Below are positions 25,118-63,956 of a stretch of DNA of 64,000 nt, piece after piece. Each line of letters opens with the position of its first letter. Position 1 is the stretch's first letter. The DNA is from Rhizophagus irregularis (Eukaryota; Glomeromycota; Glomeromycetes; Glomerales; Glomeraceae), in contig NC_089439.1 of assembly GCF_026210795.1 (NCBI RefSeq), positions 4,216,001 through 4,280,000 of the forward strand, in the 5' to 3' direction. The position numbers and the translations under genes are program-made. Under the pieces are notes generated by a model. That model was not told where the DNA came from. It did not search any database and saw nothing but the letters and a program-made list of their open reading frames with translations.

Positions 25118-26380
25118 TTAAATAAGTGTATCATAAATATGAGTAGCTTCAGATATATCTAAATCCATAATTTCCCAACGGGAAGTATCATTTATAATAT
25201 TTAATATTTCATAATTCTCAATTTTAACTTCCACTAATCTAATAAGTTTTAAAGAATTAAGATGTATTTTTAAAGCTATCATAACAAGATCAAATCCTAC
25301 AGGACATCTATAAATTTCAAAATGTGATAAAGAATTTTGTACTTGAATTAAATTTACTAGCCCATTTACTTCTTCTAACGTAATATTTATACTATTATTA
25401 AAATCTAACCAAGAATATTGATCATATTCTATACTTATAATTATAGTTTTCAAATTTTTTGATACTTTAGCGAGAGAATTTAATAAAATTTGTTTTCTTT
25501 GTCTGCTCGTACAAATGAATTCAACCAAATTTGATAAACAATTTGAAGATCCTTCAAATATCGGTAAAATGAAATAAGATTCTGGTAATCGAGTATAATC
25601 TAATTGTTCGTCATCTATATGAGATTGAAAATCCTTATATAAATGTTTACATCGAAATTTTCCTGATTTCAATTTATTTTTTTCAACTTCAATTGAGATT
25701 GATATTAAAGAATTTTGCTTATTTCTCATTAATAATTTACATATTACAATTGCCACCCAATCATTTAATTGATCATTATTTTGTGGTTGTTTATAATTTA
25801 ATATATTATTGGCAAGATATTTAAATAAAATTATTGAATCATCATTATTAGAAGATGATGAAATAATGAATGAAAGTGAAGTAGAAGGAAATCCAATCCA
25901 ATTCCAAATAGGTGAAAAAAAATCTCCGAATGAAATATAATTATTATTAATTTTAGAATTTTCGGAAGCGAATTGAATCCAATCAATTATAGCGTTATGT
26001 AATTCTTCAAAATCAATATATTTTAAAAATTGTATATAATTAAATATTGGTCGTTTATAATTTGGTCTATCATTATCTTGTCTTTGTTGTAAAATATATG
26101 ATTCATTAATTCTTAATTCTTCGTTAAACATAAAACATGATAAATATGTTTCAAGTAAATTATAAGCTTGAAATTGTCTTTTTATAGCTTTTTCATTATT
26201 ACATTGACAAATTTCTTTTTTACATGTATAAAGAAATCGAAAAGGTTGTTTCCATAAAATATCGATTGTATTTTTACACCAATGTCGATTTACTAATAAA
26301 CATGAATGTAAATCTTCTTTATCTTCTTTAAGTTCTTCAAATATTTGACGTAAACATTCTGCGGGCAAATACGTTGTCAT
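25118..26380 (-). CDS. F-box protein (single exon, 420 aa)
   Basis: Substrate receptor of an SCF-type ubiquitin ligase; target unknown. One uninterrupted frame from ATG 26380 to 25118. The F-box is at the extreme N-terminus (about residues 3-45): LPAECLRQIFEEL, then LHSCLLVNRHWCKNTIDILW, the Skp1-binding pattern. The remainder is rich in Asn, Leu and Ile with irregular leucine-rich stretches (for example SNCLSNLVEFICTS, LNSLKLIRLVEVKIENYEIL) that could form a degenerate leucine-rich solenoid. Intron-less F-box genes with this start are a large family in arbuscular mycorrhizal fungi. No lesion. Upstream DNA (26381-26470) is A/T-run rich with no named promoter motif. Confidence 0.9.
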   Translation of the reverse strand: MTTYLPAECLRQIFEELKEDKEDLHSCLLVNRHWCKNTIDILWKQPFRFLYTCKKEICQCNNEKAIKRQFQAYNLLETYLSCFMFNEELRINESYILQQRQDNDRPNYKRPIFNYIQFLKYIDFEELHNAIIDWIQFASENSKINNNYISFGDFFSPIWNWIGFPSTSLSFIISSSSNNDDSIILFKYLANNILNYKQPQNNDQLNDWVAIVICKLLMRNKQNSLISISIEVEKNKLKSGKFRCKHLYKDFQSHIDDEQLDYTRLPESYFILPIFEGSSNCLSNLVEFICTSRQRKQILLNSLAKVSKNLKTIIISIEYDQYSWLDFNNSINITLEEVNGLVNLIQVQNSLSHFEIYRCPVGFDLVMIALKIHLNSLKLIRLVEVKIENYEILNIINDTSRWEIMDLDISEATHIYDTLI

Positions 26381-37749: not shown

Positions 37750-38280
37750 TAGATGGAAAAATATTGAGAAACCCCATAAGATCTCATGTATCAAATATGG
37801 TCCTGACCATTTATTGTCTAATTTACTTGATTTAAAATTTTGCCATGCTGCATTGTATCCCAATATTTCATTTCCTATTTTAAATTCTTCTTTTCTTTTC
37901 TTTTTGCTATCATAATATTCTTTCTATCTCATCTGAAATCTTAAAATTTCTTCTTTTGCTATATTTCTTTGAAAGGTATCTTCCATATACTAAATAAAAT
38001 GGTTTAACCTTTGTAGAAAATGGGTTTTGTTTTTATATGTAAATAATACCAAAGGTATTTTATCATCCCATTGTTTATCTTCTTGTAATTTAGCTAATGA
38101 TTCACATAGTGTTTTATTAAACCTTTCTACTAATCCATTAGTTTGAGGATGATAATTCATTGATAAATTATGCTTTATTTCAAACTTTATAGTTAATAAT
38201 TCCACCATTTTATTGCAAAAATGTTTTTCTCTATCACTGTAGATAAATGTATAATTTTGCAATACATTTTAGAGGACTTA
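37750..38280 (-). pseudogene. Ty3-type integrase fragment
   Basis: On the minus strand, 38262-37990 reads FIYSDREKHFCN (second catalytic Asp context), NYHPQTNGLVERFNKTLCE (the signature around the catalytic Glu) and WDDKIPLVLFTYKNKTH. Lower down, in shifted frames, EEFKIGNEILGYNA and KWSGPYLIHEIL correspond to the integrase C-terminal GPY/F-type module. The frame is broken between the parts and nothing upstream is found. A relic of a Ty3-class LTR retrotransposon polyprotein. Confidence 0.75.
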
Positions 38281-43497: not shown

Positions 43498-44496
43498 AAA
43501 TATTTATCAAAATGATAATTTGTATTATAAGGTTTTTTTTTTTTGTACATTTTATAAAAATACAATAATACGAAGTTTTACATTTATTGTAATAATGTAA
43601 TAACGATAATGGTAAATCAGTTGTCACCTGTCAGTATAATACAGTATTATATGTATTTATTAAGATAGATAATTAAGGATTCATTATTTTAACGAATTTA
43701 TCGAATTAATTTATTTTAAAAAATTTTATTCGAATATTTCATGTGCTGGATACATGGCGAAGATATATTTCATACATTTAATACATTTCTAATATTAAAT
43801 AAACGGTTTTAACGGATTAAATAAAACAAAGAAATATCAAATATCTAATATTTTCTAATCAAAATCTTGGAAATTCATTGTAAGTTTACCGGATTTGTAA
43901 ACTTTATGAAATTTATGGTCAATACATAAAAAGTAACCACATGGACTCATGGACTTTATAAATTACGGACGGAATCGAAAATCAATTGATGATCATTTAC
44001 ATAATTCTTTGCCTATTTTGTTACAGTGATAATCATCATATGTCGGAGTAAATTAGTTTATTCAAACAATCATTGACAATAATCGGAATACAATTTAGTT
44101 TAAGCTTAATTTAGAAATACAGAGTTACCAATAGAGATATCAATACTGGTAATTTAATACAGAATGCAGATATGCACATTGCGTATGTTAAATTCCTGGT
44201 AACGTTTCAACGTGGAAGGTATGGAAGGTGTGTGGAGAATATCTATTTTATAAATGTAAATGTTTATGGTAGATCTCCAGTATATGGTGTGATACTCGAA
44301 GTTTGTTCTATTTCTGTGACACATCAATAAGCAGGGCTGACAACTGGTTAAACAAGTATTTATATGGCAGTAAAACCTCATTTTTTTTTCTCAATCATTA
44401 AAAATATTTTTTCTTCGTTCTCGACGACTTTTAATCATTAAAAATAGTTTTATTTTATTCCAAACGACTTTTAATTACTAAAAATATTTTTACAAT
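43498..44496. other. Intergenic, copine upstream region
   Basis: AT-rich sequence. Just before the copine start there are two approximate repeats of CTTTTAATCATTAAAAATA (around 44388-44480). No other feature. Confidence 0.45.
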
Positions 44497-47200
44497 ATGA
44501 AAGGAGCACCACCAAGATATGCTCATTCACAGATTGAACTTAAAATTTCTTGCGAAAAATTATCGGATTTGGATTATCTTTCTAAAAGTGATCCACAAGT
44601 TATATTATTAGCTAAAGATATTCGTACTCAAAAATGGAGACCAACAAACCAACAAACTGAAATTATTATGAATGATTTAAATCCAAAATTCGTAACATCT
44701 TTTATCGTTGATTATTTCTTTGAAGAGTTACAACAATTCAGGTATATTAAAGAGATTTTAATTCTATAATTATTATTATTATTATTTATTAATTTAATTT
44801 TTTATTTGTTCAGATTTATTTGTGTAGACGTTGATAAACCACATAATCCTGAGTGGCAGGCTCAAGAATTTGTCGGCCAATTTGATTGTGATCTCGGTTC
44901 TATAGGTAAACTATTTTTTTAAAAAATGTTTTTTGATCTTATAAAATTTAACATGATTTTCTTTGGTCTGTGTAGTCGGTTCTCCAGGCGGTACGTTGAA
45001 AGGAACATTTTACGATCCAAACCATCCAGGTAAAGACCGAGGACACATAATTATAGAAGCTGAAGAGGTTAGCAAGTCAAAAAGAAACGTAAAGTATGTA
45101 TTTATTTTTGCTTTGCGTTTTTATCATTTGTATTATCTGATTCATTTATTTTATTCATAATTTCTTTTTTTAAAAAAAATATTAGATTACAATTTCAAGC
45201 TCATAATATATCTCCAAAAGTAAGATAGGATTTAATTTTGATTAATCTTAATTTAAATATGATTTAAATTCAAATATTTTCTTAAATATTTTTAGGGTGG
45301 TTTGTTTAAATCAAAGCCAGAAATATTTTTAGTTATTAGTAGAACAAACGAAAACGAAATTAGCACATCTTCTCCGGTATATCAAAGCTCTGGAGTTACT
45401 ACAAGCAATCCATATTGGGAACCATTTACTAGTAAGTTTAAATAAAATGATTTTTTTTTTTACATCCTTTCATATTTATTTATTTTATAATATTATGTAG
45501 TTAGAGAGACGACATTATGCAACGGGGATTTTGATCGAATATTGATATTTCAAGTGAAACAATACAAAAAGAACGGATGTACGTAATCGCATTAAATATG
45601 TGTATATATATATGTATATATATTTGAGATTCTAAAATTATTGTTTTAAATTACAGCACATATAATTCTTGGAGAATGTAGCGTAACCCTTCATGAAATT
45701 TTATCATCGAAAACGAGCTTTCCATTACGTTCACCTTCTAATTCAAATGTGAAGATTGGAAAAGATGCATGTATAACTGTTATTCATGCATCAGTTGAAG
45801 AGCCACCAACATTTTTAGATTACATTGCCGGCGGTACAGAGATTAACCTTGTGGTCGCAATTGATTTTACGGGATCAAATGGAGATCCTAGATCTCCAAA
45901 AAGTTTACATTATATTAAGGGAACAAATGATAATGAATATCAAAAAGCCATTCGCAGTGTTGGACAAATGTAAGATTAATTTTTAGTTTTAAGAAAGAAT
46001 TTTTATGATTTATACGATAAATTTTCATTAATTTAATTTTTTTTTTTCGCGATTTTAGATTGGAGGGATATGATTATGATCGAAGGTTTCCGGTATATGG
46101 ATTTGGCGCAAAATTCAATAAGGAATTATCTCACGCCTATCCACTGAATAATAATAGAGATGATGTACGTGAAATTAAGTTTCATTTATTCTTTATTGAT
46201 TTAGCGTGGCGGTTTTCTTTTTGCTATTTCTTTTTTATATATTGTCTAACTTAACTTTGATTTTTTAGCCTGAAGTAGAAGGAGTTGATGGAATATTGAA
46301 AGCCTATTCAAAAGCCATGGAAACTATTGAGTTATTTGGACCGACTAACTTTTCACCTGTAAGTGTAGCTTATTTAGTACAGTTAAATATAGTAAAGTTG
46401 ATTATTTATTAATAGTTTTACGCTTTGTTATAGATTATAGATCAAACAGCCGCTAAAATTAAAAGGGAGATCGATAATGGAAATGACAATGTTTATTATA
46501 TATTGTTAATAATTACAGGTAATTTTTTTTTTTTATCACAAATTCGTATTTAAGTTACAATATATTGATTTATTCTTTATTTATAATGATACATATTTTA
46601 CTTTCTTTCCAAATTATAGATGGTGTGGTAACTGGTATTTACGTTAATTTAAATTTTTTAATGTTTGATATAATTTTTAAATTATATTTTTTTAACAATT
46701 TGTTCTTTTTATTAGTTATGGAGCCAACAATTAGAGCAATTATAAGTGCCAGTAAACTTCCATTGTCCATTGTTATTGTCGGAGTTGGCAATTCAGATTT
46801 TACTAATATGAAGATACTTGATGCTGACGAAAAACCATTGGTGGTAAGTAGTTATTACTAATACTTGGAATGTTTTATTTTAAAAATTGTTAATGTCTCA
46901 TTCTAATTATAATTATAATTTTGATTTACTTAGCAAAAATCAATCCCTCAAGCAAGGAAACCAGCAGTAGTAATGGATAGAGATATAGTACAATTTGTAG
47001 CAATGAGAGATTTTCAGTCAGAAGCAGCATCATATGAGTTACCGAAAGCAGTATTAGAAGAAATTCCTGATCAATTTATGGAATATATGACGAAACATAA
47101 AATAGAACCAAGACCTCCAGTTAGGATAGATGTATCAGACTTAAAAGTTAATCATAGATTTATCAATACTCCTGATGAACCTCCACCGGCTTATACATGA
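44497..47200 (+). CDS. Copine (two C2 domains plus vWA/copine domain)
   Basis: Calcium-dependent phospholipid-binding protein that recruits partners to membranes. Thirteen exons: 44497-44741, 44814-44905, 44976-45093, 45186-45219, 45296-45431, 45501-45578, 45657-45969, 46059-46164, 46269-46358, 46434-46518, 46620-46634, 46716-46843, 46934-47200. They join in frame to 568 residues, the usual copine length. C2A starts at IELKISCEKLSDLDYLSKSD. C2B begins near KPEIFLVISR and includes NPYWEPF. The vWA/copine domain carries the metal site DFTGSN (about 304-309), FPVYGFGAK, HAYPLN, IITDGV and IVGVGNSDFTNM. The C-terminus PPPAYT is typical of copines. Exon 46620-46634 has only 15 bases but encodes the essential DGVVT stretch. 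No lesion. Confidence 0.95.
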
Positions 47201-48119
47201 AAAAAAAGCAAATTTTTGCTCCGATCAACTTGGAAATTTATTAATAAATACGTAAATCTCTCAAACTTTCCGTAAACGTTATTTGTAAAATATTCTTATT
47301 ATTATATTATAATTATAATTGTTATTATTTATTATTATTATTGGAAACTTGAGATGATATATAATTATATAATTTTAGATTTTAGAAAAAAAAATTTGTA
47401 TTAAATTGTACATATTAAGTAAGTATATGACGAAATGATCTTAATCTAGAACAAACATTTTATTTTTTTAATCAAGTTCTATTCATACTTTTTCTGTTTA
47501 TACAATACAATTTATTTTTTTTCAATTTATTAAATCACTAATTAGCTTCTTTAATTATTTTAACGAAAAGAATGAATATATCAAATATTATCAAGTAAGG
47601 AAAATTGTAACAATTGCGTGAGTGTTAAGTTAGATTTTTGTTCAATCATTACGAGTAAATTCCGTGCGAAAAAAAAATTTCTTATCTGTTATCCATGTGA
47701 CAGTTGATTGAACCTGAACCTGCTGTTACACGAATCAAAAACAATATTTTTGCGACAGTTGTATACTTAAAAGAAAAAGATGATTGAAATTTTAAATAAT
47801 GCGCGGAATTTATCTTTTAAAGTATAAAAGGTTTGACAAGAGCTCAATTAATTTTTTTTTTTTTTTTTTCCAAATGCTGATTTTTTTTTATAACTCATAT
47901 TTGCTAGGATTTTCATTTATTAAATTTTTTTTACAAGAATAAAATACAAATTATTAAGAATATACTTTTTTTGTAATGATAATTTATCTAACATTAATAA
48001 AGTCCATTATTGTACATATTACATTTGCATTAAATACCGTCAGCGTTCAAACAAACTTTTCTTTAAAGAACAAATAGAGATGAACAAGGTCGCGTGACTT
48101 AATGGATTATTAAAATATT
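47201..48119. other. Intergenic, nothing recognised
   Basis: AT-rich 3' flank of the copine gene with long T runs near 47850-47895. Confidence 0.45.
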
Positions 48120-48495
48120 TATCATGATAATATTTGATAACGTATCCGAAATATTAGCAAGATTTTTTAATAAATATATAGATTCTCATATTATGCATTA
48201 AACAAAAGTATTATGAATAATAATGCAACAAACGCAAACGACATCTTAATACCAAAAGATCGTAATTTTCAAAGATTTATTGATGCAGTCCTACTAACTT
48301 CCAACATCCACATCGTTCTTGGATTAACTCACCTTTTATTAGACAATCCATAACTCTCCATCCCGAAGATGTCTCTATCAATTACGTGCTTTTGACCATT
48401 CCTCATTAAATTCTAATCTTAAGAATAAGGCGAGACGTTATTAATTTATGGAGTACTTTTCTTCCTAGGAAGACTAATAATCCTACTAATTTGTA
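48120..48495 (+). pseudogene. Orphan-family pseudogene, inverted and decayed
   Basis: On the plus strand the frames give DNVSEILARFFNKYIDSHIM and later pieces that align with FQRFVDA, VLGLTHLLLD and the terminal TNL-GTAAGT exon end of the genes at 50.0, 53.0 and 62.2 kb. Several stops, a lost start and an internal deletion (between the FVDAV and VLGLT blocks) show that it is dead. It is the only member on the plus strand. Confidence 0.7.
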
Positions 48496-48854
48496 AGTCC
48501 AATGTCTCATTTTTTTTGTGATTTAATTTAATCTAACGTACTTTATGATAATTAATCAAATAGAAATGGTGATAATCATATTCTAAAATACTTAAACCTA
48601 TACGTATCCATTAAATTAACTGTATCAGTAACTTGAGATTACAAATACATCAGAGTCAGAGCAGAAGTCAGAGTGGGTCAATTATTAGAGTATAAGTAAA
48701 ATTAATTCTATTTATTTACGCATACATAACTAATTATAAATAACTGTTTTTTTTTATAAAATTAGAAATTTAACATCCGTATTTAATATTATAGATTCGA
48801 ACTTCAACTCCTTTATCAATTTATATTCAATATTCGTTAATTCAGGCGCTTAAT

Positions 48855-49047
48855 CCCTATAAAAAATTTTTATCCGAATATTTCCATTATTTCTCCGTGG
48901 CTTTCGTAAAAATTCCGTGAAAATGATACATCCCGGATATTCGTGATAGAGTAGATGAAAGATTTCCATGATTTTAAGGTTAAAAATTCCATGAAAATAA
49001 TACATTCACGACAAAATCATGGAAATATAAACACGGATCAATTGCTA
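48855..49047. mobile_element. CCCTATAAAA-family MITE
   Basis: The left end CCCTATAAAAAATTTTTATC and the following 90 bases are nearly identical to 39871-39960. The right half is more divergent and its terminus is eroded after CACGGATCAA. Confidence 0.65.
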
Positions 49048-49673
49048 TATAATTTAGTTAACAATTATTATACATTTTTTTTTTAAAAAATAACAATCAT
49101 TTATTTTTTGTAATTCTTTGATTATGTTCAATTGCAGAAGAGTCAAAAAACAGATTAAATCAGGCATAACATTGGAATTAAGAACGTATCCCTAAAAAAA
49201 ATTAAAATTTTTTTAAATTTTTTCAGAAAAATTTATCACGTGTCTGAGTTTCTTCGGAAATAAAAACTAGAAAAATGATCATTTTATCGGAGTTTTTTCC
49301 AGAATTTTTTTTTTTATAGGAGGCAAATATTGGTAAAAAATATTATATTATTTAAACAAATTTTATAAATTATATTAATAAACTACTTAAACATTTATTA
49401 TTTAAAAGAATAAATTATACATAGTGTTTTTTACTTTCATATTTTTAATATTTTTAACTAAATTATATTATAAACTAACTTAAGCATTTATAAATTTTAT
49501 ATATAGTGTTTTTATTTTCATATTTTTAACTAAACTTTTATATTTGTTTAACGGTATTATTATGTACTGTACATATCTATAAAATAAGAATGATTATTAT
49601 TATTATTTTTTTTTTTGTAAGATGAAACGAAAAGTATAACATCACTTAACGTTCAAAAATAAATTAAAACTGT

Positions 49674-50543
49674 TTAAATGCTAATCACATAATTAAGCAT
49701 TTTAGTTAACGAATTTCGAATATAAGCTGATAAAATAGTTGGAGTTCGGGAAGCACCAGTATCTATAATATTAAACACAGGTGTTAAATCACTATAGTTT
49801 AATAAATAACAATTATAATTAGATATGTATGCGTATTATTATTATATTATATTTGAATTTAAATATATTTATTTACTTACATACTACGTGAATCGGTAAG
49901 AACTGGATATCGAACTTCATGAATTAAAATATCCCATTCACCGTTCCTTTTTTTTGAAAAAATTATTATAAAATATATTAATTTTAAAAATTAAATAGCA
50001 TATATAATAAAATATCAAAACTTACAAGTTAGTATGACTATTAGTCTTTTTATAAAGAAAAATACTCCATAAATTACGAATATCCTGTAAAATAATAGCC
50101 TTATTCTTATAATTAAAATTTAATAATGAGGAATGATCTATTTTATTGTACACAAAATATGTAATTCCAATAAATGGATAAATTTCTTCAAGTTTAAAAT
50201 CTCCAAAATTTCCGGATTTGTCTGATAGAAGATGAGTTAATCCAAGAACGAATTTCATAAAATTTACGAGCATCATATCATCAGGAAAAATTTGTTGATA
50301 TATTCGAACATTTGAAGTTAATTTAATTTGGGTAGGATCAAAATCTCGACTGGTTACTGCATCGACAAATCTTTGAAAGTAAATATCTTTTGACCTTAAA
50401 ATGACACTTGTTGTATTATTGTTTTTATTTAACCACCAATTAATTATATGAGGATCTATATATTTGTTTAAAAATTTTGCTAATATTTCAGATACATTAT
50501 CTATATTATCATGATAAATAGATGTTCGCGTTGTTGTTAACAT
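49674..50543 (-). CDS. Orphan-family protein, member 1 (intact, 233 aa)
   Basis: Exons 50543-50026, 49946-49881 and 49791-49674 (518, 66 and 118 bases; both introns phase 2) give 233 residues. The same 66 and 118 base exons occur in the two other intact members. Family motifs in order: TSIYHDNIDNVSEILAKF, FQRFVDAVTSRDFDPTQIKL, FMKFVLGLTHLL, YPFIGITYFVYNKIDHSSLL, IRNLWSIFL, SHTNL, NGEWDILIHE, DLTPVFNIIDTGASRT. No signal peptide or clear membrane span. I do not recognise the domain and assign no function. The first intron starts at the conserved TNL, so a one-exon reading would end there wrongly. Confidence 0.8.
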
Positions 50544-52353
50544 TATAAGTATTTGTAATAAAGATTGTAGCGTCGTAGTTTATTACAAGTGTTTAGATCA
50601 ACTTCTCGAAAAAAAAATATAATAAACTTTGTCGGGTTATATATTAGGTTTTTTTTTAAATTCGGATTCGTTTTAGTTTTTATTCTTTAAACGATCTAGT
50701 ATAAAATGTATATGTACAAAAATGAATTAATAATTGAAATATTATTATGGATAAAATAATTACAGGATAAATTATTATACAGTTGAAGAGAAAAAAAAAA
50801 ATTATTCAAGAAAAAAAGAAAGTTCTACCCAACATTTTATATTGATGCAAAGGTAAAGAATATGATATAAGAAGACAGTGGACGAAAAGCAAAATTACTT
50901 TAAAAGGAAAAAAGGAAACCATTGTTTTGTTGTGTAGTAAGATATTCATTGGTGATTTATAATTCGGAATCTACGGTCTTTATTATATATTTTTATTTGA
51001 ACCGATAAATCCGATAATGCATAATATGCATAATAATATTTTTTATCAAAATAAACATTGTAGTTATATAATTAATAAAGTATTCACTAAAGTATGACAA
51101 TGATAAAACTTTAATAATTCTATCAAATTTTTTTTTTAAAAAAAAATATGAAATTTAAAAAATTTGAGACGCGAGATTTATTTTATTTAAAAGGATATTT
51201 TTAGTAAAATTTTTGGTAAAACGGGTAAACAATCATAGGCATCACAATGTTACATTTTACTGTTACAGAATTTGAAACAAGCCAACAAGCCACGTTTAGA
51301 GTGATCGCTCATAATTCCTTGTTTTGAATAGAATTTCCTGATTTGGTATGATGGTGTCAATAAATCATCACAACCTTTTATTTAATATGAAAATTTAAAA
51401 AAAAATTACTAGTTTTTCATATAAAAATAATAAGAGAATAAGATTTCAAATGTTAAAGGGGAGATAACCAGGGGTTAACGAGAGGGGATTAACGAGGGGT
51501 TAACGAGAGGATATAGTACAAAAAATGAAAAAAATGAAAAAAAAAGAGACAAGACAAAGAATGAATAATACAACGAATCAAAGTCAATATTTAATATCCC
51601 AAAAAAAGTAAAAATGCGCTCACTTATTATATTATACCTAAAATCGAGAATAAAAAAAAATACATTTTCGGGTTTGGCTCAATTAATCAATCAAATTATT
51701 AAAAGTTATTTAATTGACAGGTTCATATCAATAAATATTAATTTTATTTAATAAATATAATGCGAAATAATATCATTAAGTATTGTACAAAATTTTAAAT
51801 TTTTAACAGATGTGTTGACCATATGATACATTTATGCGTGTTGCAGCAAGAAGAGGTAAATTTAAATTTTTTTTTTTAATCCGAAAAGTTTCATAAATTG
51901 TAAACGTTTTATGCATAAATAGTTATTTATTCGAGAGAATAAAACAAAAAATAAATGATTGTCAGTGAAATGTTGTCATTGTGATTGTCGATTGCCTCAA
52001 TAAATATCGGAGATGTATATTAGAATATTTTAGCAAATACCATATTAGTGATTGACAATAATATCATAATATCCTAACATGACGTTTTAGGACTTTACAA
52101 AGATATTTGTTGACGCAGTAACCACCATACTACTCAAATTGCTAATATCCGCATAATAAGAAATTATTTCGCAACTCCTAGTTCACGTGCCAGGTTTGAT
52201 GTTACACAATGAGAGGATCAACAAACAAGCAGGGGATAATACAAGTTTTATCTAATTATAAATGATGTTCCGGAGTCCGGGACAATCAATGAATATTCGT
52301 ACTGTACGACATTGATTTTCTGTCCGATAGTCAGTGAATAATTAATTAATTGA
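50544..52353. other. Intergenic, nothing firm
   Basis: AT-rich. Short imperfect repeats of GGGGTTAACGAGAG near 51470-51510. No gene seen. Confidence 0.45.
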
Positions 52354-52511
52354 CCCTAATTCCGGTGTTTTTTTTATTTCATGTTATTTCCGTAAATGTA
52401 TCATAAAACATGGAAATTATCCAAGTTGCTTAAATTTTTAGTCATTTTCCCGTAAATGTTTCATATTCACGGAGTTTTTACAGAAATCACGTATTAAGAT
52501 TTTTTACAGGG
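52354..52511. mobile_element. CCCTATAAAA-family MITE, divergent copy
   Basis: It begins CCCTAATTCCGG and ends GATTTTTTACAGGG, with internal GTAAATGTATCATAAAACAT and CACGGAGTTTTTACAGAAAT-like blocks shared with other members. The boundaries are approximate. Confidence 0.5.
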
Positions 52512-52915
52512 ATGAGATTTTATTTGGAAAAAAAGAATTAATAATGATTTTTTTTTGAAAAATAATTTTGTCGATAAATAAAATTTGCTAGTAATAAATC
52601 TCGTATTTGCATTCTATAGTGTCTATTTTATTTTATTTTTTTTTCTCTTTCATTTTCAAGTTTATATACTTTGGATTATGCTAATGAAACTTTGGATTAT
52701 ACTATTTGTCTAGAATGAAATATCAGTCAAATATAATTATGAGATATAATAATATATAATAAATGTAAATTAAATCACGTAATAATATAACAAATTTTAA
52801 GAACTGCATTTTAAAAAATAAGCAAAATAGCCAATGAACGATGGGTTAAATGGGGTCAAGTTTCTTGACCAACCTGATTGGCTACATAACAAATTACAAA
52901 ATTAATTAAAAAAGT

Positions 52916-53978
52916 TTAAATATTAATTATATCATTAAGTACTTGAATTAACGAATTTTTAATATAAACTGATAAGGGTATTGAAGTTTGAGAAATACCA
53001 AGATCTATAATATTAAATGCTGGTGTTAAATCCCTATAATTTCGAAAATTATGTCATAATTAGTTATGTATATGTATATATTAGGCCAGTTCAGCTTTTT
53101 TATCGTAATCCGAGTATGTGATCAAAATCAAGAATTGAAGTCTTCTTTTACCACTGATTGCAAAAAATTCTATTTAACTAATCAGCCTCATTTTAAAAAA
53201 AATCCCACTTTTCTTGTTTGGAAAATCCAGGTCGCTGATCAGGTTACACAATCCTGACAGCCAATATAGCCAATATTTACGATCAAGAAATGAACTGGCC
53301 TATTCTATATAAATAGAACAAATTTACTCACACTCTACTTGAATCATTAAAAATTGGATAATGAGTTTCATGAATTAGAACGTCCCATTCACCATTCCTA
53401 GTATTTGAATAATTAATTATTAGTTTAAATTAAAACTTTAAAATTAATATAGAGAATCGTACTTACAAATTAGTATGACTATTCGTCTTTCTAAAAAGAA
53501 ATATACTCCATAAATTACGAATGTCTCGTAAAATAAGAGCTTTATTATTAGGATTAGAATTAAATAATGAAGAATGTTCTATTTTATTATATATAAAGTA
53601 TGTAATTCCAATAAATGGATAAATATCTTCAACATGTAAATTTCCGGATTTATCTAATAAAAGATAAGTTAATCCAAGAACGAATTTCATAAAAGTTACG
53701 AGTGTCGTACGATCATCAGGAAAGATTTTTTGATATATTTGGACATTTGAAGTTGGTGTAATTTGGGTAGGATCAACGTTCCGGTTGGTTACTGCATCAA
53801 CAAACCTTTGAAAGTTACGATCTTTTGGCCTTAATATATTATTTTTTATATTATTAATATCAATAATGTTTTTATTTAAACACCATTCTAGAATATGAGA
53901 ATCTGTATATCTGTTAAAAAATTTTGCTAATATTTCAGATACATTATCAATATTATCATAATAAATGGATGTTCGCAT
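52916..53978 (-). CDS. Orphan-family protein, member 2 (intact, 231 aa)
   Basis: Exons 53978-53467, 53397-53332 and 53033-52916 give 231 residues. The last two have the same lengths and phases as in the other members. I chose ATG 53978 (MRTSIYYDN) because the member at 62.2 kb has the same MRTSIY context; in-frame ATGs at 53996 and 54032 would add up to 18 residues. Motifs: NIDNVSEILAKFFNRY, FQRFVDAVTNRNVDPTQI, FMKFVLGLTYLLLDKSG, YPFIGITYFIYNKIEHSSL, IRNLWSIFL, NGEWDVLIHE, DLTPAFNIID. The second intron is enlarged by a miniature transposon (53084-53300). Function unknown. Confidence 0.8.
53084..53300. mobile_element. TA-flanked MITE inside an intron (217 bp)
   Basis: The ends are GGCCAGTTCA and TGAACTGGCC, perfect over 10 bases, and TA lies on both sides (53082-53083 and 53301-53302). 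It lies wholly in intron 2 of orphan-family member 2. The corresponding introns of members 1 and 3 are short and lack it. The 63-codon frame inside is incidental. Confidence 0.75.
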
Positions 53979-55214
53979 TTTAATAATTAATAACATTGTA
54001 TTATTATTGGTGATTAATAAACATTCAACCAAAAGTTTTTTTTTAACGGCTGATAATATTTCAAAATAATTAGTGCGTAATAGAATTTTAAAAAAAGAAA
54101 ATACAAGAAATATGAGAAATATGAGATCAGATAAATAATTGCTATAAGGATTATAATACGTTTAAAAAGGGGAAGCGTTCAAAAGGATGAAATTATAAAA
54201 ATTTATTTGTTGTTATGCTCTTATAAAATCAATATTTGAAAAAAAAATAATTCGAAAAAAAAAGGTTTTGGCTCAGCATTTATATTGCTGAAAAAAAAGT
54301 TAGTCCGAGTAATTAAAAAGCATGTAAAAATAGATTACTGAAAAGGAAAATCATTTTTTTTTTGTGTAGCGATTATTTAATTGAGAAGGTAAAACTTAAA
54401 ATTTTTTTTCTACTTAATAAGAAAAAAAAATTATCACGTGTTTCCTGATACATTTAGGATTAATAATGTCCTTTGTCTGGAATACTAAATAACACGAGGA
54501 ATGACGATAATTTGGAAGTGTATATTACGAAAAAAATTTCACAAATGGAAAAACAATTGATTAAAATTATATGCATACATATTTTTAAGAAAGAAAAACA
54601 AATGTTCTTTATATTATCTGTAGTAGATGAATAAATAATAAATAAACAATATTATAAATGATAAACAACGTTTCAAAATCGTTTTCACGCTATAAATAGC
54701 AAAAGTGCGATGATCATCAGAAAAAATTGTTGTATACTGTAAAGGAAAAAAAAGATAGTATGCTGATTTTCTTTTCCTATGAAAAACGGATATCTGAAAA
54801 TGTCTTGTTATCTCCAAAATGTCTGCAAATATCTAAAAAAAAAAAATTTCATTATAACTGACTAACCGACTATATATTTTATTTTATAAGGTAGTGCAAG
54901 GCAGCGTCCTAAATTGATTTAACAGTATCAATATTTGAAATCCATAGAAATTCCGCATATAAAAACTTTGCCATGTTTCGACGTGTTACGATAAACTAAT
55001 AATTAATTTTGTCCTAATTGATATTAATATTATTGTGTCAGGAAGTTACTTTAGAATATCGGTTAAAGCCGATACAATAATAAATCGGAAATTTTTTCCG
55101 GTGACTTTTTTATCATGTACGAAACTGGATTTAGCGAAACCATAATCGGATTTTGAATAAATTATTATTATAAACAAATTAAATTTATAGATTGATTTGT
55201 TTTATAAAAAGAAA
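53979..55214. other. Intergenic, nothing recognised
   Basis: AT-rich with several A runs; no gene supported. Confidence 0.45.
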
Positions 55215-55835
55215 AAGAAAAAAAAAAATCTCCGTGAATTAAAAATTATGAATGTCTTACATAATCGTGCATTTAATTAACGATGAATGTTCTTTTTTAA
55301 TTAGTACAACAAATACAAATAATGAATTCTACAAATTCATTCACAAATTGTATCCATAATGGATGTGTGTTACGTTACTTTTTTTTTTATGGTTTGAACA
55401 TTTATGATTTTCTAATCACATGTAACGCACTGTAATCATGTAAAACATTTCATTCCGCTGAGACACGATTTTATGCATCCAAAACGTTCGGTTTGATTTC
55501 CAACTGCCTTAATAAATAATTATTTTATGTAAAGTACGTAATCTAATAAATGGACATACTGTATATCTTCAACAAGCAAATTACCGGATTGGTCTAATAA
55601 AATGTAAGTTAATCCAAGAACAAAATTATGAGTACATTGTACGGTCATCAGTTGATACTGGCTGTTATTGTAATTTAAATCCTGGCTAGTTACTGTATCG
55701 ATATACAGTAACTTTGAAAATATGATCTTTTGAATTTGCATATTTCGCATTATTATTGTTATCAAGAATATTTTTATTTAAAAAGTTTAAACACCAAACA
55801 ATAATACGAGGATCTTATATTTGTTAAAATAATCA
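55215..55835 (-). pseudogene. Orphan-family pseudogene
   Basis: Minus-strand pieces match exon 1 of the family: a degraded N-terminal half (around 55835-55690), the VLGLTYILLDQSGNLLVEDI block (around 55630-55560), and the equivalent of RNLWSIFL near 55240-55210. Foreign DNA of about 150 bases separates the last two. The start codon and introns are lost. Confidence 0.65.
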
Positions 55836-56990
55836 AAATAATCATACTAAGAAACGTAATAAATAGGTATTGTGGTTTTTGTAAGAAAGTATGTATGATG
55901 ATCATTCAAAATGATTGGCAATCATGTGATAAATAACCAATCAAGATGCATGATATTTATGTTTGATTTTAAAATAAGAATTTTGAAAATCTTAAAATTT
56001 TATAAAAATTAAATAATAATCCGTATAATAATGTATAATAATAAATCAAATAAAGAATCAAAATATATAGTGTTATTTAATTTTAATATTAATAGTTTAT
56101 AATAAATATTAACAAAAATATATAAATTTCTATATTAGAAATTAAAATATAATGTTAAATAAATTATTAATTATATTATCGAGTTATATTAAAAAAAATT
56201 GAAATAGAAAAAATTGAATCTATAAAATTTCTTAATTACCTATATTATTATTTAACATGATTTTCATAAGTTTTCCAAAAGTTTAATAATTACATTTTCT
56301 ATTAGCGTTAAATATTGTATGATATAAATTATTAGATTGAACAAGACAATTTTTTAAAATAAATGTAAAAACTATAATTCTTATTATTCGTTTATAAAGA
56401 AAAAAAATAAATAATAAAAAATTAATTTGAATGTTTGATATCTAATTTGTGATCAAACCACATTTTTTTAATGCCAGATATCAAAATTTGTTTTAATCAT
56501 ATTAATATGTAAAAATATGCAAAAAATTTTAGTTTTATTGAATTTTACGAAAAAATTAAATACAAAAAATTATTCTGGAATTTTAATAACAAGAGATTCA
56601 TAATGAAGTTTAAAAAAATTGGTTAGTAGTATTTAATTTTATGTATAATAATACGGTAGTAGGAAAAGAAAACTTTATTTAAAATTATTTTATTAGCGTA
56701 TTGTACTGCGTACATTGCTAAATGTACTAGCACGTGCAGAATACTGTAGTGACCTATTAATTATCTTTTTTTATCCTTTTAATTATTATCCTTAAAAATG
56801 ATATTGTATTATATCAATGATAATTTTAATATTCTAAATTTTCAAATTAAAAAATCAATATTATAATGTAAACTGAGCTCGTAAATAAGCAAAATTAATA
56901 GGTTATAATAAATTTTTTTTTGAAATTACGTATAAATCACATAATGTTATGTCTCAGATCGATTCTTACCTCAGATCGCAGCTCACGCAT
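55836..56990. other. Intergenic, nothing recognised
   Basis: Very AT-rich; no gene or repeat ends seen. Confidence 0.45.
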
Positions 56991-57118
56991 AAAGTTCGAG
57001 AAGTACTACCATCAATACATGGCTCACTTGATGATCGATATTCTGATCGTCAAGTGAGTCAAATCCGGTTATCATTAGTTATGATTTACAACATGTATAT
57101 ATCGCAAGACAAATTTAA

Positions 57119-57385
57119 TTCGTGATCCGTGAGCCAACTGCAAAAAATTCTTTGGTGCAAATTTTTGTCGATCATTAGTAATCTTTTTCTGATACCCGGT
57201 TTTCATTCCTTAAGTAATGCTCTTCATGTAAACCCATTCGACTCTGACATATTTTAATACATAATATTTATCCCAAAGTTTCAAATAATTTGTTTTTTAA
57301 AATAAATTTCTCACATAAATTTTTTCTTTTATTTGACGCTACCCATTTTCTGCAGATCCTTTGCAGTTGACTCGTGGATCACGAA
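57119..57385. mobile_element. TTAA-flanked MITE, piggyBac-like (267 bp)
   Basis: The ends are TTCGTGATCC and GGATCACGAA. The inverted repeat continues to about 28 bases (…CAACTGCAAA / TTTGCAGTTG…). TTAA is present on both sides (57115-57118 and 57386-57389). TTAA duplication is the piggyBac signature. No coding sequence. Confidence 0.7.
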
Positions 57386-57477
57386 TTAATACATCCACTT
57401 GAGTCCGAAAAACTTACTAGCGAACACCGAATTTCGTAAATTAAAATATTCCATTCACCATTTCTATATGATTTATT

Positions 57478-57605
57478 GTCCGGAGCGAAGCGAAGGACAA
57501 TATATGTCTACGCACTATGAAAAAAAAATCGATCCCGTGAATTTCTCTGTCCGCCACGTGATCGTTCCCCAATAAAATCGCAAATTTAGCTTTTTCGCTC
57601 CGGAC
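57478..57605. mobile_element. Miniature element with GTCCGGAGCGAA ends (128 bp)
   Basis: A perfect 12-base terminal inverted repeat, GTCCGGAGCGAA / TTCGCTCCGGAC. The interior is GC-richer than the window (GATCCCGTG, CCGCCACGTGATCG). Target duplication unclear. It lies between exon 1 and exon 2 remnants of an orphan-family pseudogene. Confidence 0.6.
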
Positions 57606-58085
57606 TTACAACGGTTCCCGTTTCCTAGTTATTATAAAGTACGTTAGTTTAATAATCAAATTACAAATAAAAATATTTGGACTATTAGTCTTTCTAAAAA
57701 AGAAATACTCCATAAATTAAGAATTTCCCGTAGAATAGAGAGACTTATTTTTGAGATTAGAATTTAATAATCTATTTTATAATACATAATTCCAATTGAT
57801 GGATAGATACAAATTTCTGGATATGTCTATCAAAAAGTAAGTTATTCCAAGAACGAATTTCATGAAAGTTACGAGTATCGTACTATCGCTAAGGAATCAA
57901 CATGTTACTGCGTCAACAAATCTTTGAAAGTTATAATCTTTTGGCCCGCCCTAAACCTTCGTTTGTATTATTAATGATTTTTTTTATTAAACCAATCTAT
58001 AATATGAGGATCTGTATATTTGTTAAAAATTTTGCTAATATTTCAGATGCATTATCGATATTATCATGATAAATAAATGTTTAAA

Positions 58086-59830
58086 TTTTATCTGGAAGTC
58101 ACTTATTTGCCACAGAAGATGCGATAGAATATGTCTGGGTTATTATTAACGTTTCCTTTTAACATCTGATTCTATTAAACAATCTTGGGATGTACCAATT
58201 TGCAGTCATTTAATTTTGATTGGTTGATTGTCTATCATGTGATTAAATTGACAAACAATTGGTTTATTTCTATTGTACCTTTTTCTATTCTCAAGTCATT
58301 ATTCATTGCCGAGAGAATGTGATACTGCAGTGATGGCATTAAAAGTTGGAGGCACTTTTGGAACTTCAAAATAAAAAAACATTGGAAGCTTTCAATGCCC
58401 ATCACTGTGATACTGTATCTGTTACATAAGTGGTTACGCCACGCAATACGCCACACAATTCCAATCAATTTCCAAAATAATCTGTAATTGATTTGAAGTC
58501 AAAGCCACTCAACCTGCAAGAACTGCGGTAATTCATTTGCGGAATTTGCGGAGCGCAAATTACTTCTGGATTCCGTAAATTATATATGGTTCGAATATTA
58601 ATTTAATTGCATGTGGCTTTTCTTGCGCATTGCGCAATAAGTATTTTACTTGAACACTGACAGCGTTATGTTACAATTATAATTTTATTTTACTTTATAG
58701 AAAAATTTCTTTGATTTCCTGTATAAGAACAAGAGTAGAACAAGTAATTATGTCACAATAGGCCAAGAAGGTAACTTCCGCAATTAACTTAATTTTAAAA
58801 AAAAGAGAAAGATTTCCTAATAAATATTGTTACATAAAAAAGAAATTTGAGATTTTAGTCAATTTTTTTTTTATCCGAATACCGAAAAAATTTTCAATTT
58901 TTGGAATTTGTAAAAAAACGGATTAATAAATTAGTTATTATTGGAATTATTGAAAGTATTTATATAGTTTCATTCATTTTAATCTCGGAATTTCCCGGAT
59001 TACCTACAGTATATTGATGTCAATCAAATTAACTAAATTTAAACTAGTTTACCATAATCACATTACCAGCATTTTCACATTATCTCATACATAAGGATGT
59101 GATTGGCTTAACTTAGATTGCGAAATGTTAAGAAAGAGAGCAATATAAAGCATATTTACCATAATCTTACAATGTGTATAATTTTTTAAATATTTAATAC
59201 AGAAAGACAGTCATCATTTTATTTGTACTGAGGTCGTCATTTATTAATAAATCGACAAACGATTTAAGAAACCAATTTTTTTTTATTAAATTGTCAGGGC
59301 ATTCAAATATTTAATAATAGAATAAAATATACGAAATATCGGCGGATTTGAATAATCAACGTGTTATTTTGTTACACAAAGCATTACATAAGGCGCGAAC
59401 ATTAAAAAATTTTTATTTGGTTTTGCTATACAATAATTTGATAAATACTTCTTTTAAGCCAAAAATATAATAAGTATGATTCTAATAATATTGATAATAT
59501 CCGTTATGGGATCTCACTTTGCGCGAAATATTTTTTTGTAAAATTGAAAGTACATATGTTTTACAATCAGTTTTGAGTGCAAAGTTCCTATAATGTGTAC
59601 AATAAAATAAATGTGAATTAGTTATATGACTTGAAAAATATAAAAAAATGGACTTTAAACATAAAAAAAATTTTTTTAAACAATATTCATTGAGTTTTAA
59701 AAACTTTTAAATATTTATAGCTATTGTGACTATATAAATTTCTATTTTACATCTTGTTTTATTAAAGCATACTCACTTTCTAATAATAATTACTAAAATT
59801 ACTATGCAGGCGAGAAATGGGTTTTTTTGA
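58086..59830. other. Intergenic with a hairpin and a shared repeat
   Basis: A hairpin is formed by CAGTGATGGCATTAAAAG (58328-58345) and CTTTCAATGCCCATCACTG (58389-58407). The block AGTGGTTACGCCAC at 58432 recurs at 63959. No gene is supported. Confidence 0.45.
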
Positions 59831-60338
59831 TGTTACTATCGGTTTTCGTCGAAGTCACGTGATAGTAACGGAAGTACGCATAAGTCAATTCACAAAATAA
59901 GGTGTATATGTCAATTTAAAGTTTATATGTATATAAATTTAAAATGTATATTTATTGGGAATAAGCAATAAATGAAACCATAAATAAGTAATAAATAATA
60001 AACTTCATAAATCATAAAATATAAAATAAAACAAAATATTGCTGCCTCCACCGGCGATCTACAATGATATTACCGAATAGAAAACTAAACTAAAATTATA
60101 CTAAAATAAACCTTTCTAAAATCTCTCTTTATCGCTTCGTTTACCTTATCTTTTTATACTATATCGTATCTTCGAGTAAGTTATCGTATCGATAAGTTAC
60201 TTTAAAATAAGTTATCAAATCGATAAGTTACTATAGGAGTAAAGTTACTATTAAAGAATCTATTAAGGTAACTTACTATCCGGAGCGTCGATCATTACCG
60301 GGGTTCCGATTCCAGCGTCGATCCGCGTGACATTAACA
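59831..60338. mobile_element. LTR candidate (508 bp)
   Basis: It starts TGTTACTATC and ends GACATTAACA (TGTTA...TAACA), like the solo LTR at 34733. Both have AGTCACGTGATA about 25-30 bases from the start. Internal A-rich stretches with AATAAA are present. No target duplication was found, so the boundaries rest on the end motif and the resemblance only. Confidence 0.35.
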
Positions 60339-61459
60339 ATCTTGAAGTATGAAAATCATTTAACAATATAAAAAAACTTATACTAATAGACTTTAAATGA
60401 AAAATCCAGAACTCAAGATTTCTTTCCCTTTTTCGATCGGCTTTTATATTCTGATTCTATTTCACTTTCTTGGTGGGTTCCAGGCGTTGAATGAAAATCT
60501 TCTTCAATAAATAGAGAATAAAAAATAAACCGATACTGGGACTCAAATTTATTTTCAGAGATGCTATATATGAAAATCACGTTCAATTTTCTATATAATT
60601 GGAACCTACTAAGAATGTGAATCAAAATCGTAATATATAGTAATTAAATTACTAATTGCTTATGATTTAAATAATAAAATTCAGTGTATTACTATATCAT
60701 GCATGACATGATCACGATTTATTTCAAAGAATCACGATTTTTTCTTAACCAAAAAAAATATATTCATTTAAACGTGTATAAAAACTTTTTCTGATTTTTA
60801 ATTTTAATTTCTTATTCGGAATTATTGAAAGAGGAGTTCAATTAGAAGTTTGGGAATTTGCGGAACTTTTTTCCGGAACCAAATCATATAAAATAAATTT
60901 GATATAATGGAATTTATTAGTAAAATCTCGATAATTGCTATAACGGAACAAATAACGAATCAGTTATATTAAAAATGATTCGATTTACCGGAACACGTGA
61001 TGATTCACGGTTTTAAACCAATAAAATTAGCAGCAAGTGTGATGATCCTTTGGAAATTTTAGTGGAATACGCAAGCTTTGAAGACTCAGATGAAATTTTT
61101 CTGAATATATTGACTAGGAATGTTGAAAATATTGAAGAATCTTCATCACTTTATAAGGATGTAATATAAATAGAATTTCCTAAATAAGATTGTTTATTTG
61201 GATAATTAACATATGGGAAACCCCTAAAAATAAATCAGATCATACACGAAATCTTTTTTTTACACTTTAATCACGAACTTTTTTATTGAAAATATGTCTA
61301 ATAGTGAAGTAAGAAAAGCAAAAACAGGGTAGGATAGATGATTTTTTTTAAGTTTTAGTTTATAAAATTTCTCAAATAATGTTTTAAATAAAAAATAATC
61401 TAAATTTTCAGTGTTCGTCGCACATGTCGCACAAATAAAAACTTGATTTCATATGATTT
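60339..61459. other. Intergenic, nothing firm
   Basis: No supported gene. The region near 60945-61000 (TATAACGGAACAAATAACG) resembles pogo/Tigger-type terminal sequence and may be a decayed copy. Confidence 0.4.
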
Positions 61460-61564
61460 ATATATAAAATCCGGTATATCGAAATTTTTTGATATATCGG
61501 AAGTCTCGATATACCGGATATTTTTACTGGAACGGATGGTTCCGTTATATCGAATTTCACTGTG
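61460..61564. mobile_element. Pogo/Tigger-like MITE candidate
   Basis: It contains repeated and inverted ATATCG/CGATAT motifs (CCGGTATATCGAAA, GATATATCGG, CGATATACCGG) and ends CGTTATATCGAATTTCACTG, whose complement begins CAGTGAAATTCGATATAACG, a typical pogo/Tigger terminus. The left end is unclear. Confidence 0.45.
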
Positions 61565-61836
61565 TATATACAGTATGTGCTTTATTATACGTTAAATTTT
61601 GTAACGAGTCATCGGAAAAAAAAAATAGTTAAGAGGTTTATAATTTACTGAGATCATAAAAATTTCACACATGTAGATCTGTTTTACTTGAAAAGTACGA
61701 AGTGGTGTACCTACGAAATTTTTTTGTTGGAATTTCAGTTATTCAAAAATAAAATTTCAAATGAGGCTCAAAAATAGATAAACAAACGGAAATTACTAAC
61801 CAAAAAACAGCAGAATGAAATTAACTTTAAAAGTAA

Positions 61837-62676
61837 TTAAATATTGATTACATCATTAAGTGCTTCAATTAATGAATTTTGAATGTAAACTGATAAGGGG
61901 ACTGAAGTTCGAGAAGTGCCACCATCAATAATATTAAATGCAGGTGATAAATCTCTTTTTATCGAATAATAGTTTTAATTAGTTATGATGCAGTATTTGT
62001 AATATATTTTATGATAAGTTTACTCACACTCCAGATGAATCAGTTGAAACTGGATGTTGGGTTTCCTGAATTAGAATATTCCATTCACCATTCCTTATTG
62101 GATAATTGTCATATAATAAGTCAGATTAAAAATTTAAGTATAAAATATAATAGGTCATTGTACTTACAAGTTAGTGTGACTATTAGTCTTTCTGGAAAGA
62201 AAAATACTCCATAAATTACGAATGTCTCGTAAAATTAGAGACTTATTGTTGAGGTTAGAATTTAATAATGAAGAGTGATTTATTTTGTCGTACATAAAAT
62301 AAGTTATTCCAATAAATGGGTAAAAACCTTCAAGATGTAAATTTCTGGATTGGTCTAACAAAAGGTAGGTTAACCCAAGAACGAATTTCATAAAAGCTAC
62401 GAGTGATGTACGATCATTAGGAAAAAATTGTTCGTACGTGTGGACGTCAGAAATTAATGTAATTTGAGTAGGATCAAGATCCCGGCTTGTTATTGCGTCA
62501 ACGAATCTTTGGAAGTTGTAATCTTTTGACCTCAAAACTTCGTTCGTATTATTGTCAACAATAATATTTTTGGTTAAACACCAATCTTTAATGCGAGAAT
62601 GTGTATATTTGTTAAAAAATTTTGCTAATATTTCGGATACATTATCGATATTATCATGATAAATCGATGTTCGCAT
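61837..62676 (-). CDS. Orphan-family protein, member 3 (intact, about 230 aa)
   Basis: Exons 62676-62168, 62093-62028 and 61954-61837 (509, 66, 118 bases) join in phase 2 to about 230 residues. ATG 62676 (MRTSIYHDN) is preferred; an in-frame ATG at 62703 would add nine residues. Motifs: NIDNVSEILAKFFNKY, FQRFVDAITSRDLDPTQI, FMKFVLGLTYLLLDQS, YPFIGITYFMYDKINHSSLL, IRNLWSIFL, NGEWNILIQE, DLSPAFNIIDGGTSRT. The identical exon structure across three members, with most changes conservative, argues for selection on the protein. Function unknown. Confidence 0.8.
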
Positions 62677-62703
62677 TTTATCTGGAAACCACGTATTTAT
62701 CAT

Positions 62704-63956
62704 AAATATGCGTTATTCTTAACGTTATGTTAACGTTTCGTTTATCTCTCTTATTCTTGATTGTTTATTTAACGTTTGAGTAAAATGTGTGTGTAGATTT
62801 ACTGAATTTACTGGGTCAATAAAGAAATATTATATATTAGATTAGACTAAATGACTTATATAATATGTTTAAAAGTAAAGCAGGTAAATTTTTAGATAAA
62901 ATTTTATCAGCTTTATGCTCTTATAAGAAAATCAATAAATGAAAAAAATAACTAAATATAAGTTGATAAAAAAAAATGGTGCTAACGTTTTTTTTGATTT
63001 ATTTTCAAAATTTTGCATTTATCTTGAGAAATTTTTTTCGAAGCCAAAATTACCGCGTTTTTATAGCATCTATTTTATTAATGTGTTCAGATTGTCACTA
63101 ATAAATATAATCAGAAAGATGTTAAATATTGTCCAAAATAATAATTACCATACATCTATTAATTTGTACTATATTTGGACTTATGTACAACACTATGCAA
63201 ATTGTGAAATTTTGATGTTTAATATTTATTTTGCTTGTAAACAGAATTACTTTAACATTTTTATATCGATGTTTTAATTAACCACAAAAAAAAAAAATTC
63301 TTATCAAAAATTATTCAATAGTGATCAACCCATTTTTTTAATGATTTGATAGATTTTTTAGTCAAGTTGTAGCACAACGGAAATTATTGGTGCATATTGA
63401 ATGGCCATTTACTGATCGGACAAATTTTTAAAATATAGAGTTTTACATTTAATAAATCGGTTGTTTAATGGGTAACAAGAATTTAAAAACAAAAATAAAT
63501 CAGGTTAGACGAAATATGAATTCTTTAAACTTACTTGAAAATATACGCCAGTGTGTAATAAAATAACTTACTCCTATACTTATATTAAATATTTAATTAT
63601 GTACAGAAATAATATTCCCATTCAATAACAGGTAAATAGAACTATATAAAAGTTGAAAAGTTTCGGTAACATGAAGAATTTCAGACTTTTCTATACAACA
63701 TTTATCTTAGTAAGATTGTAAAATGTTTTTCCCATTAGACATTTTCGGACAATAAACACAATAAACTCCGGAAAATGTCCAGGTGAAATACGGAAAATAT
63801 AGGAAAATATACTGAAAATCTAATTTAGTAATTTCTTTTGATATAAATAAGAAGTTCGCCTTACTTTAAAGGAATAGAAATCATAGTATTAATATTGTTG
63901 AATTTGGTCCTAAACATGATCTGATGTTCATCAGCTTTTTAGATTACTAAGGTTAT
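62704..63956. other. Intergenic, nothing recognised
   Basis: The 112-codon frame at 62939-63277 is Lys/Phe/Ile-rich low-complexity sequence without a domain and is not called. Inverted CATTTTCGG/CCGGAAAATG pieces near 63740-63780 may belong to a decayed MITE. Confidence 0.45.

Follow-up and report, generated by a model that had tools for sequence, protein, structure and literature searches.

An array of intact and decayed copies of a three-exon gene family without a recognised domain in Rhizophagus irregularis, likely formed by local duplication with birth and death

Three intact genes share one exon structure

We analysed a window of 64,000 nucleotides from Rhizophagus irregularis (NC_089439.1, positions 4,216,001 to 4,280,000 of the forward strand; all positions below are those of the window). 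Our subject is a cluster of related genes at 48.1-62.7 kb, where three intact copies and three or four decayed ones lie within 14.6 kb. The GC content of 26% and the gene content (cytochrome P450, class 3 lipase, F-box and copine) are compatible with a genome of Glomeromycotina. An earlier reading made from the letters alone (the sequence-only reading) had described three intact minus-strand genes for proteins of 230-233 residues, with second and third exons of the same lengths (66 and 118 bases) and the same intron phases. To model them, we required GT-AG introns of bounded length, an exon 1 of 450-620 bases and an exon 2 fixed at 66 bases, with output restricted to third exons of 100-139 bases. 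A single three-exon model fitted each gene, exon 3 measured 118 bases each time, and the described gene number, protein sizes and exon structure were borne out in full.

49674-50543, minus strand: G1, intact gene; exons 50543-50026, 49946-49881 and 49791-49674; 233 residues
52916-53978, minus strand: G2, intact gene; exons 53978-53467, 53397-53332 and 53033-52916; 231 residues
61837-62676, minus strand: G3, intact gene; exons 62676-62168, 62093-62028 and 61954-61837; 230 residues

Both introns are in phase 2 in all three genes, and all six donors read GTAAGT or GTGAGT, with AG at the acceptors. Exon 1 measures 518, 512 and 509 bases in G1, G2 and G3, differences that amount to whole codons; intron lengths vary freely (79, 69 and 74 bases for intron 1 and 89, 298 and 73 bases for intron 2, in the same order). 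The three open frames are 77-83% identical as DNA, the G3 protein shares 74% identity with that of G2 and 68% with that of G1, and the conserved peptide blocks listed previously occur in each of them. An in-frame ATG lies 5′ of the conserved (M)RTS start in every intact gene (50543, 53996 and 62703). In G1, ACG stands in place of the MRTS start codon that the other two genes carry, so its start is placed at the ATG further upstream.

Decayed copies accompany the intact genes

Decayed copies were sought with a nucleotide profile (nhmmer) built from the three intact genes, for which the best match was E 2.3 in the reversed window and E 0.31 in the window outside the array.

48117-48854, plus strand: psi48, decayed inverted copy; E 1.2e-28 (48117-48289) and 5.8e-62 (48313-48854), with tblastn pieces
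52044-52154, plus strand: psi52, weak seventh relic, inverted; an exon-1 piece around the RFVDAVT block; E 2.6e-4
55521-55829, minus strand: psi55, decayed copy that retains just the middle of exon 1; E 4.4e-35
56990-58157, minus strand: psi57, decayed copy; exon 1 with some 5′ flank at 58157-57600, E 5e-89

The copy psi48 consists of two exon-1 pieces, a poorly matching exon-2 stretch and part of exon 3, and has lost a net of about 85 bases from the middle of exon 1. In psi57, exon 2 lies at 57476-57394 (E 1.8e-6) and a weak exon-3 piece at 57086-56990 (E 0.031, below the inclusion threshold); its start codon is lost, it carries frameshifts and deletions, and repeats are inserted in both introns. 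A protein-profile search of six frames agreed for psi48, psi55 and psi57 (best score in the reversed window, 8.4 bits) and gave no support to psi52, which was found by the nucleotide profile alone. The nucleotide profile thus confirmed all three of the decayed copies that had been proposed, one of them inverted, and corrected some of their positions. The copy placed at 55.2 kb lies at 55.52-55.83 kb, the match at 55311-55225 being at noise level (E 0.69), and the copy placed at 57.0 kb extends to 58.16 kb.

Differences between the intact copies suggest protein-level selection

The ratio of nonsynonymous to synonymous substitution rates (dN/dS) between the intact copies had been set as a check by the sequence-only reading. 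We estimated it by three methods, and by NG86 also for parts of the coding sequence.

G1-G2: NG86 0.48 (bootstrap 95% range 0.34-0.76), YN00 0.22, LWL85 0.73; NG86 for codons 1-60, 61-120, 121-170 and the exon 2-3 part, 0.52, 0.58, 0.18 and 0.73
G1-G3: NG86 0.27 (0.17-0.38), YN00 0.21, LWL85 0.45; by part, 0.16, 0.31, 0.16 and 0.47
G2-G3: NG86 0.24 (0.16-0.37), YN00 0.21, LWL85 0.38; by part, 0.17, 0.33, 0.07 and 0.49

The size of the ratio varies with the method and its direction does not: it was below 1 in all three pairs rather than near it, and each NG86 bootstrap range excludes 1. The family had also been called fast-evolving, which fails as a blanket label: codons 120-170 are tight, the 0.16-0.58 of codons 1-120 is intermediate, and constraint is loosest in the exon 2-3 part.

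We then compared codon positions among the exon-1 changes unique to one copy, judging each intact copy against the other two and each decayed copy against all three intact ones. Third positions were in excess in G3 (35 of 130 sites, against 22 of 286 at other positions; p 4e-7) and in G2 (14 of 109 sites and 12 of 276, respectively; p 0.006). No such excess was found in exon 1 of psi57, psi48 or psi55 (p 0.63, 1 and 1), a comparison of lower power because it had 188-293 sites per copy, against 385-416 in the intact genes. It has to be considered that every copy is already a pseudogene and the array a relic, as three or four of the seven copies are dead and constraint on G1 is weak. We regard this as extremely unlikely, since all three intact genes keep an open frame over three exons and canonical splice sites at 77-83% DNA identity, G2 and G3 show third-position bias, and the NG86 bootstrap ranges exclude 1. 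G2 and G3 very probably encode functional proteins, and G1 probably does, as judged from these substitution patterns.

Introns and flanks suggest copying as DNA

Local alignment scores of introns and flanks were compared with those of shuffled sequence, in which non-overlapping pairs of letters were swapped (an approximate dinucleotide shuffle); a gap-ignoring identity comparison was uninformative, with shuffled sequence scoring about as high, and the local scores were used instead. Among the intact pairs, exons 2 and 3 aligned far beyond the shuffles in all three, with none of 200 as high. Intron 1 did not clearly exceed them (30, 17 and 21 of 200 as high), and the 3′ flanks stood at shuffle level (114, 92 and 79 of 200). 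In the nearest 300 upstream bases, no shuffle of 200 scored as high as G2-G3 or G3-psi48 and two did for G1-G2; G1-G3 showed no such match (120 of 200 as high). Eight spacer comparisons gave three that topped all 100 shuffles, and these are the upstream stretches below.

50544-50937, minus strand: 5′ flank of G1; -394 to -249 aligns with -391 to -260 of G2, score 56
53979-54369, minus strand: 5′ flank of G2; -267 to -121 aligns with -272 to -141 of G3, score 69
62677-62977, minus strand: 5′ flank of G3; -301 to -173 aligns with -237 to -121 of psi48, score 67

These matches fit either a duplicated unit that starts some hundreds of bases upstream or a constrained 5′ control sequence; a multiple alignment of five upstream regions gave no clear common motif. 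Since some upstream DNA is common at similar distances, the genes were probably copied as DNA with their introns and 5′ flanks, and the retained introns exclude simple retroposition. The exon-1 tree is poorly resolved (best grouping G3-psi57, ultrafast bootstrap 80; others 57 and 60). The duplications look old, with no sign of a recent burst, because the copies are only 69-85% identical to one another. Separately, we considered psi48-G1 and psi52-G2 as copies of one convergent pair and found no support for this, as the spacer score of 33 equalled the shuffled mean of 32.4 to within one unit.

Three insertions resembling miniature inverted-repeat transposable elements (MITEs) lie in the array, all of them with inverted-repeat ends, within introns of its copies, and one of them inside an intact gene.

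53084-53297, no strand assigned: MITE-like insertion of 214 bp in intron 2 of G2, read by eye; short terminal inverted repeats GGCCAGTTCA / TGAACTGGCC, TA on both flanks
57115-57389: MITE-like insertion in intron 2 of psi57
About 57480-57604: MITE-like insertion in intron 1 of psi57, read by eye

The array region also holds eight minor tandem repeats, none of them tied to the genes.

Could a locally inserting transposable element carry the gene, as cargo or as an accessory reading frame? Copies in both orientations, the repeats inserted within introns and an integrase relic at 38 kb would fit such an origin. We nevertheless hold it to be very unlikely, although no search was aimed at terminal repeats or target-site duplications around the gene copies. 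Outside 48.1-62.7 kb the profile found no match better than E 0.31 and tblastn gave only E 0.11-0.44, while the short AT-rich matches of a lenient blastn (down to E 1.5e-6) were confirmed by neither. The 3′ flanks at shuffle level, the lack of any transposon domain in the proteins by Pfam and the kept introns, which rule out simple retroposition, point the same way.

The proteins gave no credible match in family searches and appear soluble

None of the three proteins matched any Pfam family at E up to 10, transposase, integrase and reverse transcriptase domains included; a profile found no match among the sequences of solved structures, and PADLOC matched none of the three. The domain search proposed by the sequence-only reading gave no confident match, and its description of an unrecognised family whose intact and decayed copies share one spot is supported by these searches and by the profile. 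Some weak hits were judged to be chance: NCBIfam RluD (E 0.0014, with 18 bits where the cut-off is 351) and AprA (E 0.037), each in one of the three members, as well as three PHROGs, the best at E 0.17, seen in two members of three. In searches seeded by two short peptide patterns each, 91 stretches of viral contigs fitted one or the other pattern, as did 40 in prokaryote genomes (one per species), with none confirmed in either set, and phage records queried with G3 gave no match; absence from these collections says little about lineage specificity.

AlphaFold returned near-total helix for exon 1, both from a 3-row alignment and from 11 rows that included pieces of decayed copies. A Foldseek search of the PDB with the 11-row model gave no match at E ≤0.001; the best of its 77 matches up to E 10 stood at 1.6, and the search was discarded as uninformative because the model is poor. 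The genes may belong, in diverged form, to a known helical family that sequence searches miss, their orphan status then reflecting failed homology detection; this is a real possibility, if the lesser one, and would alter the label and not the array. The profile was built on three close sequences only (68-74% identical to G3), both poor models are helical, and PMC10234402 discusses failed detection as a reservation about the ages assigned to R. irregularis genes. On the other side stand the empty Pfam result for all three proteins, the empty profile search of solved structures and, with the reservation that the exon-1 model is unreliable, the 0 of 77 Foldseek matches at E ≤0.001.

Mean hydropathy over 19 residues reached at most 0.04-0.14 in the three proteins for stretches that begin within residues 1-15, and the highest value anywhere was 1.19-1.54. 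With hydropathy this low, no signal peptide is to be expected, and no clear membrane helix either. The proteins measure about 27 kDa and have at most one cysteine. Given the lack of a hydrophobic N-terminus and of a strong membrane segment and the scarcity of cysteine, the product is more probably soluble and intracellular than an effector for secretion.

Other features of the window

A copine-like gene adjoins the array at 44482-47200 (plus strand); four pieces were scanned, of which one passed the Pfam cut-off (Copine, E 3.3e-10), two fell below it (Copine, E 1.1e-4; C2, E 0.008) and one had no match. The integrase core relic at 37990-38268 (minus strand; rve_3, E 5.6e-6, at the cut-off) probably derives from a long terminal repeat retrotransposon. 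Pieces of cytochrome P450 genes form a second local array in the window, at 8962-9273 (plus), 11613-11927 (minus), 16192-16503 (plus) and about 16993-17310 (plus); PF00067 was found in all three that were scanned, and the fourth resembles them by look only. Further along are a class 3 lipase gene piece (21918-22790, plus) and a gene for an F-box-like protein (25121-26380, minus). The reading frame at 970-1590 has no Pfam match and appears to resemble Rhizophagus kinases. Rfam and tRNA scans of the window found nothing.

Discussion

We consider it likely that an orphan gene family has been duplicated locally here, in the nuclear genome, to give a birth-and-death array whose copies have been kept or have decayed. 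An ancestral three-exon gene would have been duplicated repeatedly as DNA, introns and some 5′ flank included, probably by unequal or ectopic recombination and with at least one inversion. G2, G3 and probably G1 would have stayed under protein-level selection, and psi48, psi55, psi57 and probably psi52 would have decayed. The product, of about 27 kDa, is predicted to be soluble and mainly helical and to act within the fungal cell without being secreted; it may bind a partner through the conserved exon-1 core, and its looser C-terminal part would give differences between copies.

Several observations weigh against this account. G1 may be under relaxed constraint, because the third-position excess among its unique exon-1 changes is slight (15 of 110 sites, against 22 of 286; p 0.08), codon positions do not separate the differences between G1 and G2 (p 0.21), LWL85 gives 0.73 for G1 with G2, and its start has moved. 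The contrast between exons and introns is not uniform, since intron 2, supposedly unconstrained, also aligns beyond shuffles (2, 0 and 0 of 200 as high in the intact pairs). The evidence from shared 5′ flanks is modest, strongest in G2-G3 and G3-psi48 and weakest in G1-G2 (56). Only 3 of 15 pairs of 1000-base upstream regions score above 50, all at similar distances from the start; AT-rich low-complexity stretches add to the scores, and matches that are not collinear, presumably due to chance, score up to 48. Both AlphaFold models of exon 1 are poor, with a mean pLDDT (predicted local distance difference test) of 43.4 for 3 rows and 47.5 for 11. An N-terminal signal peptide, the mark of a secreted effector, was lacking in all three proteins by hydropathy alone, scored from the modelled starts and with no dedicated predictor. 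Finally, transcription of the intact copies is a supposition of this account.

We think it unlikely that the case extends to a helical fold or function that only arbuscular mycorrhizal fungi possess, with several selected copies, a shared 5′ control region and a role in something particular to the obligate symbiosis. With intact and dead copies adjacent, the dead ones offer an internal neutral standard against which selection on the intact ones can be judged, and the three proteins could seed a profile with which to count the family across Glomeromycotina. No description of the family was found among the literature matches listed, in searches that cannot use sequences.

Birth and death is a general concept for the evolution of multigene families. 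The array resembles such families in having selected copies beside pseudogenes and duplication at the DNA level, and differs from them in its high divergence, poorly resolved exon-1 tree and lack of a recent burst. Orphan families without a known domain are an acknowledged component of such genomes. A burst of gene birth restricted to Glomeromycotina, with regions of young genes, is reported in PMC10234402, a picture that this locus would fit, and expanded orphan families (“Class B” genes) and occasional tandem arrays are described for R. irregularis in PMC8647823. The array family is like the latter in lacking a recognisable domain and having several paralogues, a likeness by description, with its copies counted at this locus only. 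Families of this kind are already known from R. irregularis, and we would place this one among them as a further example.

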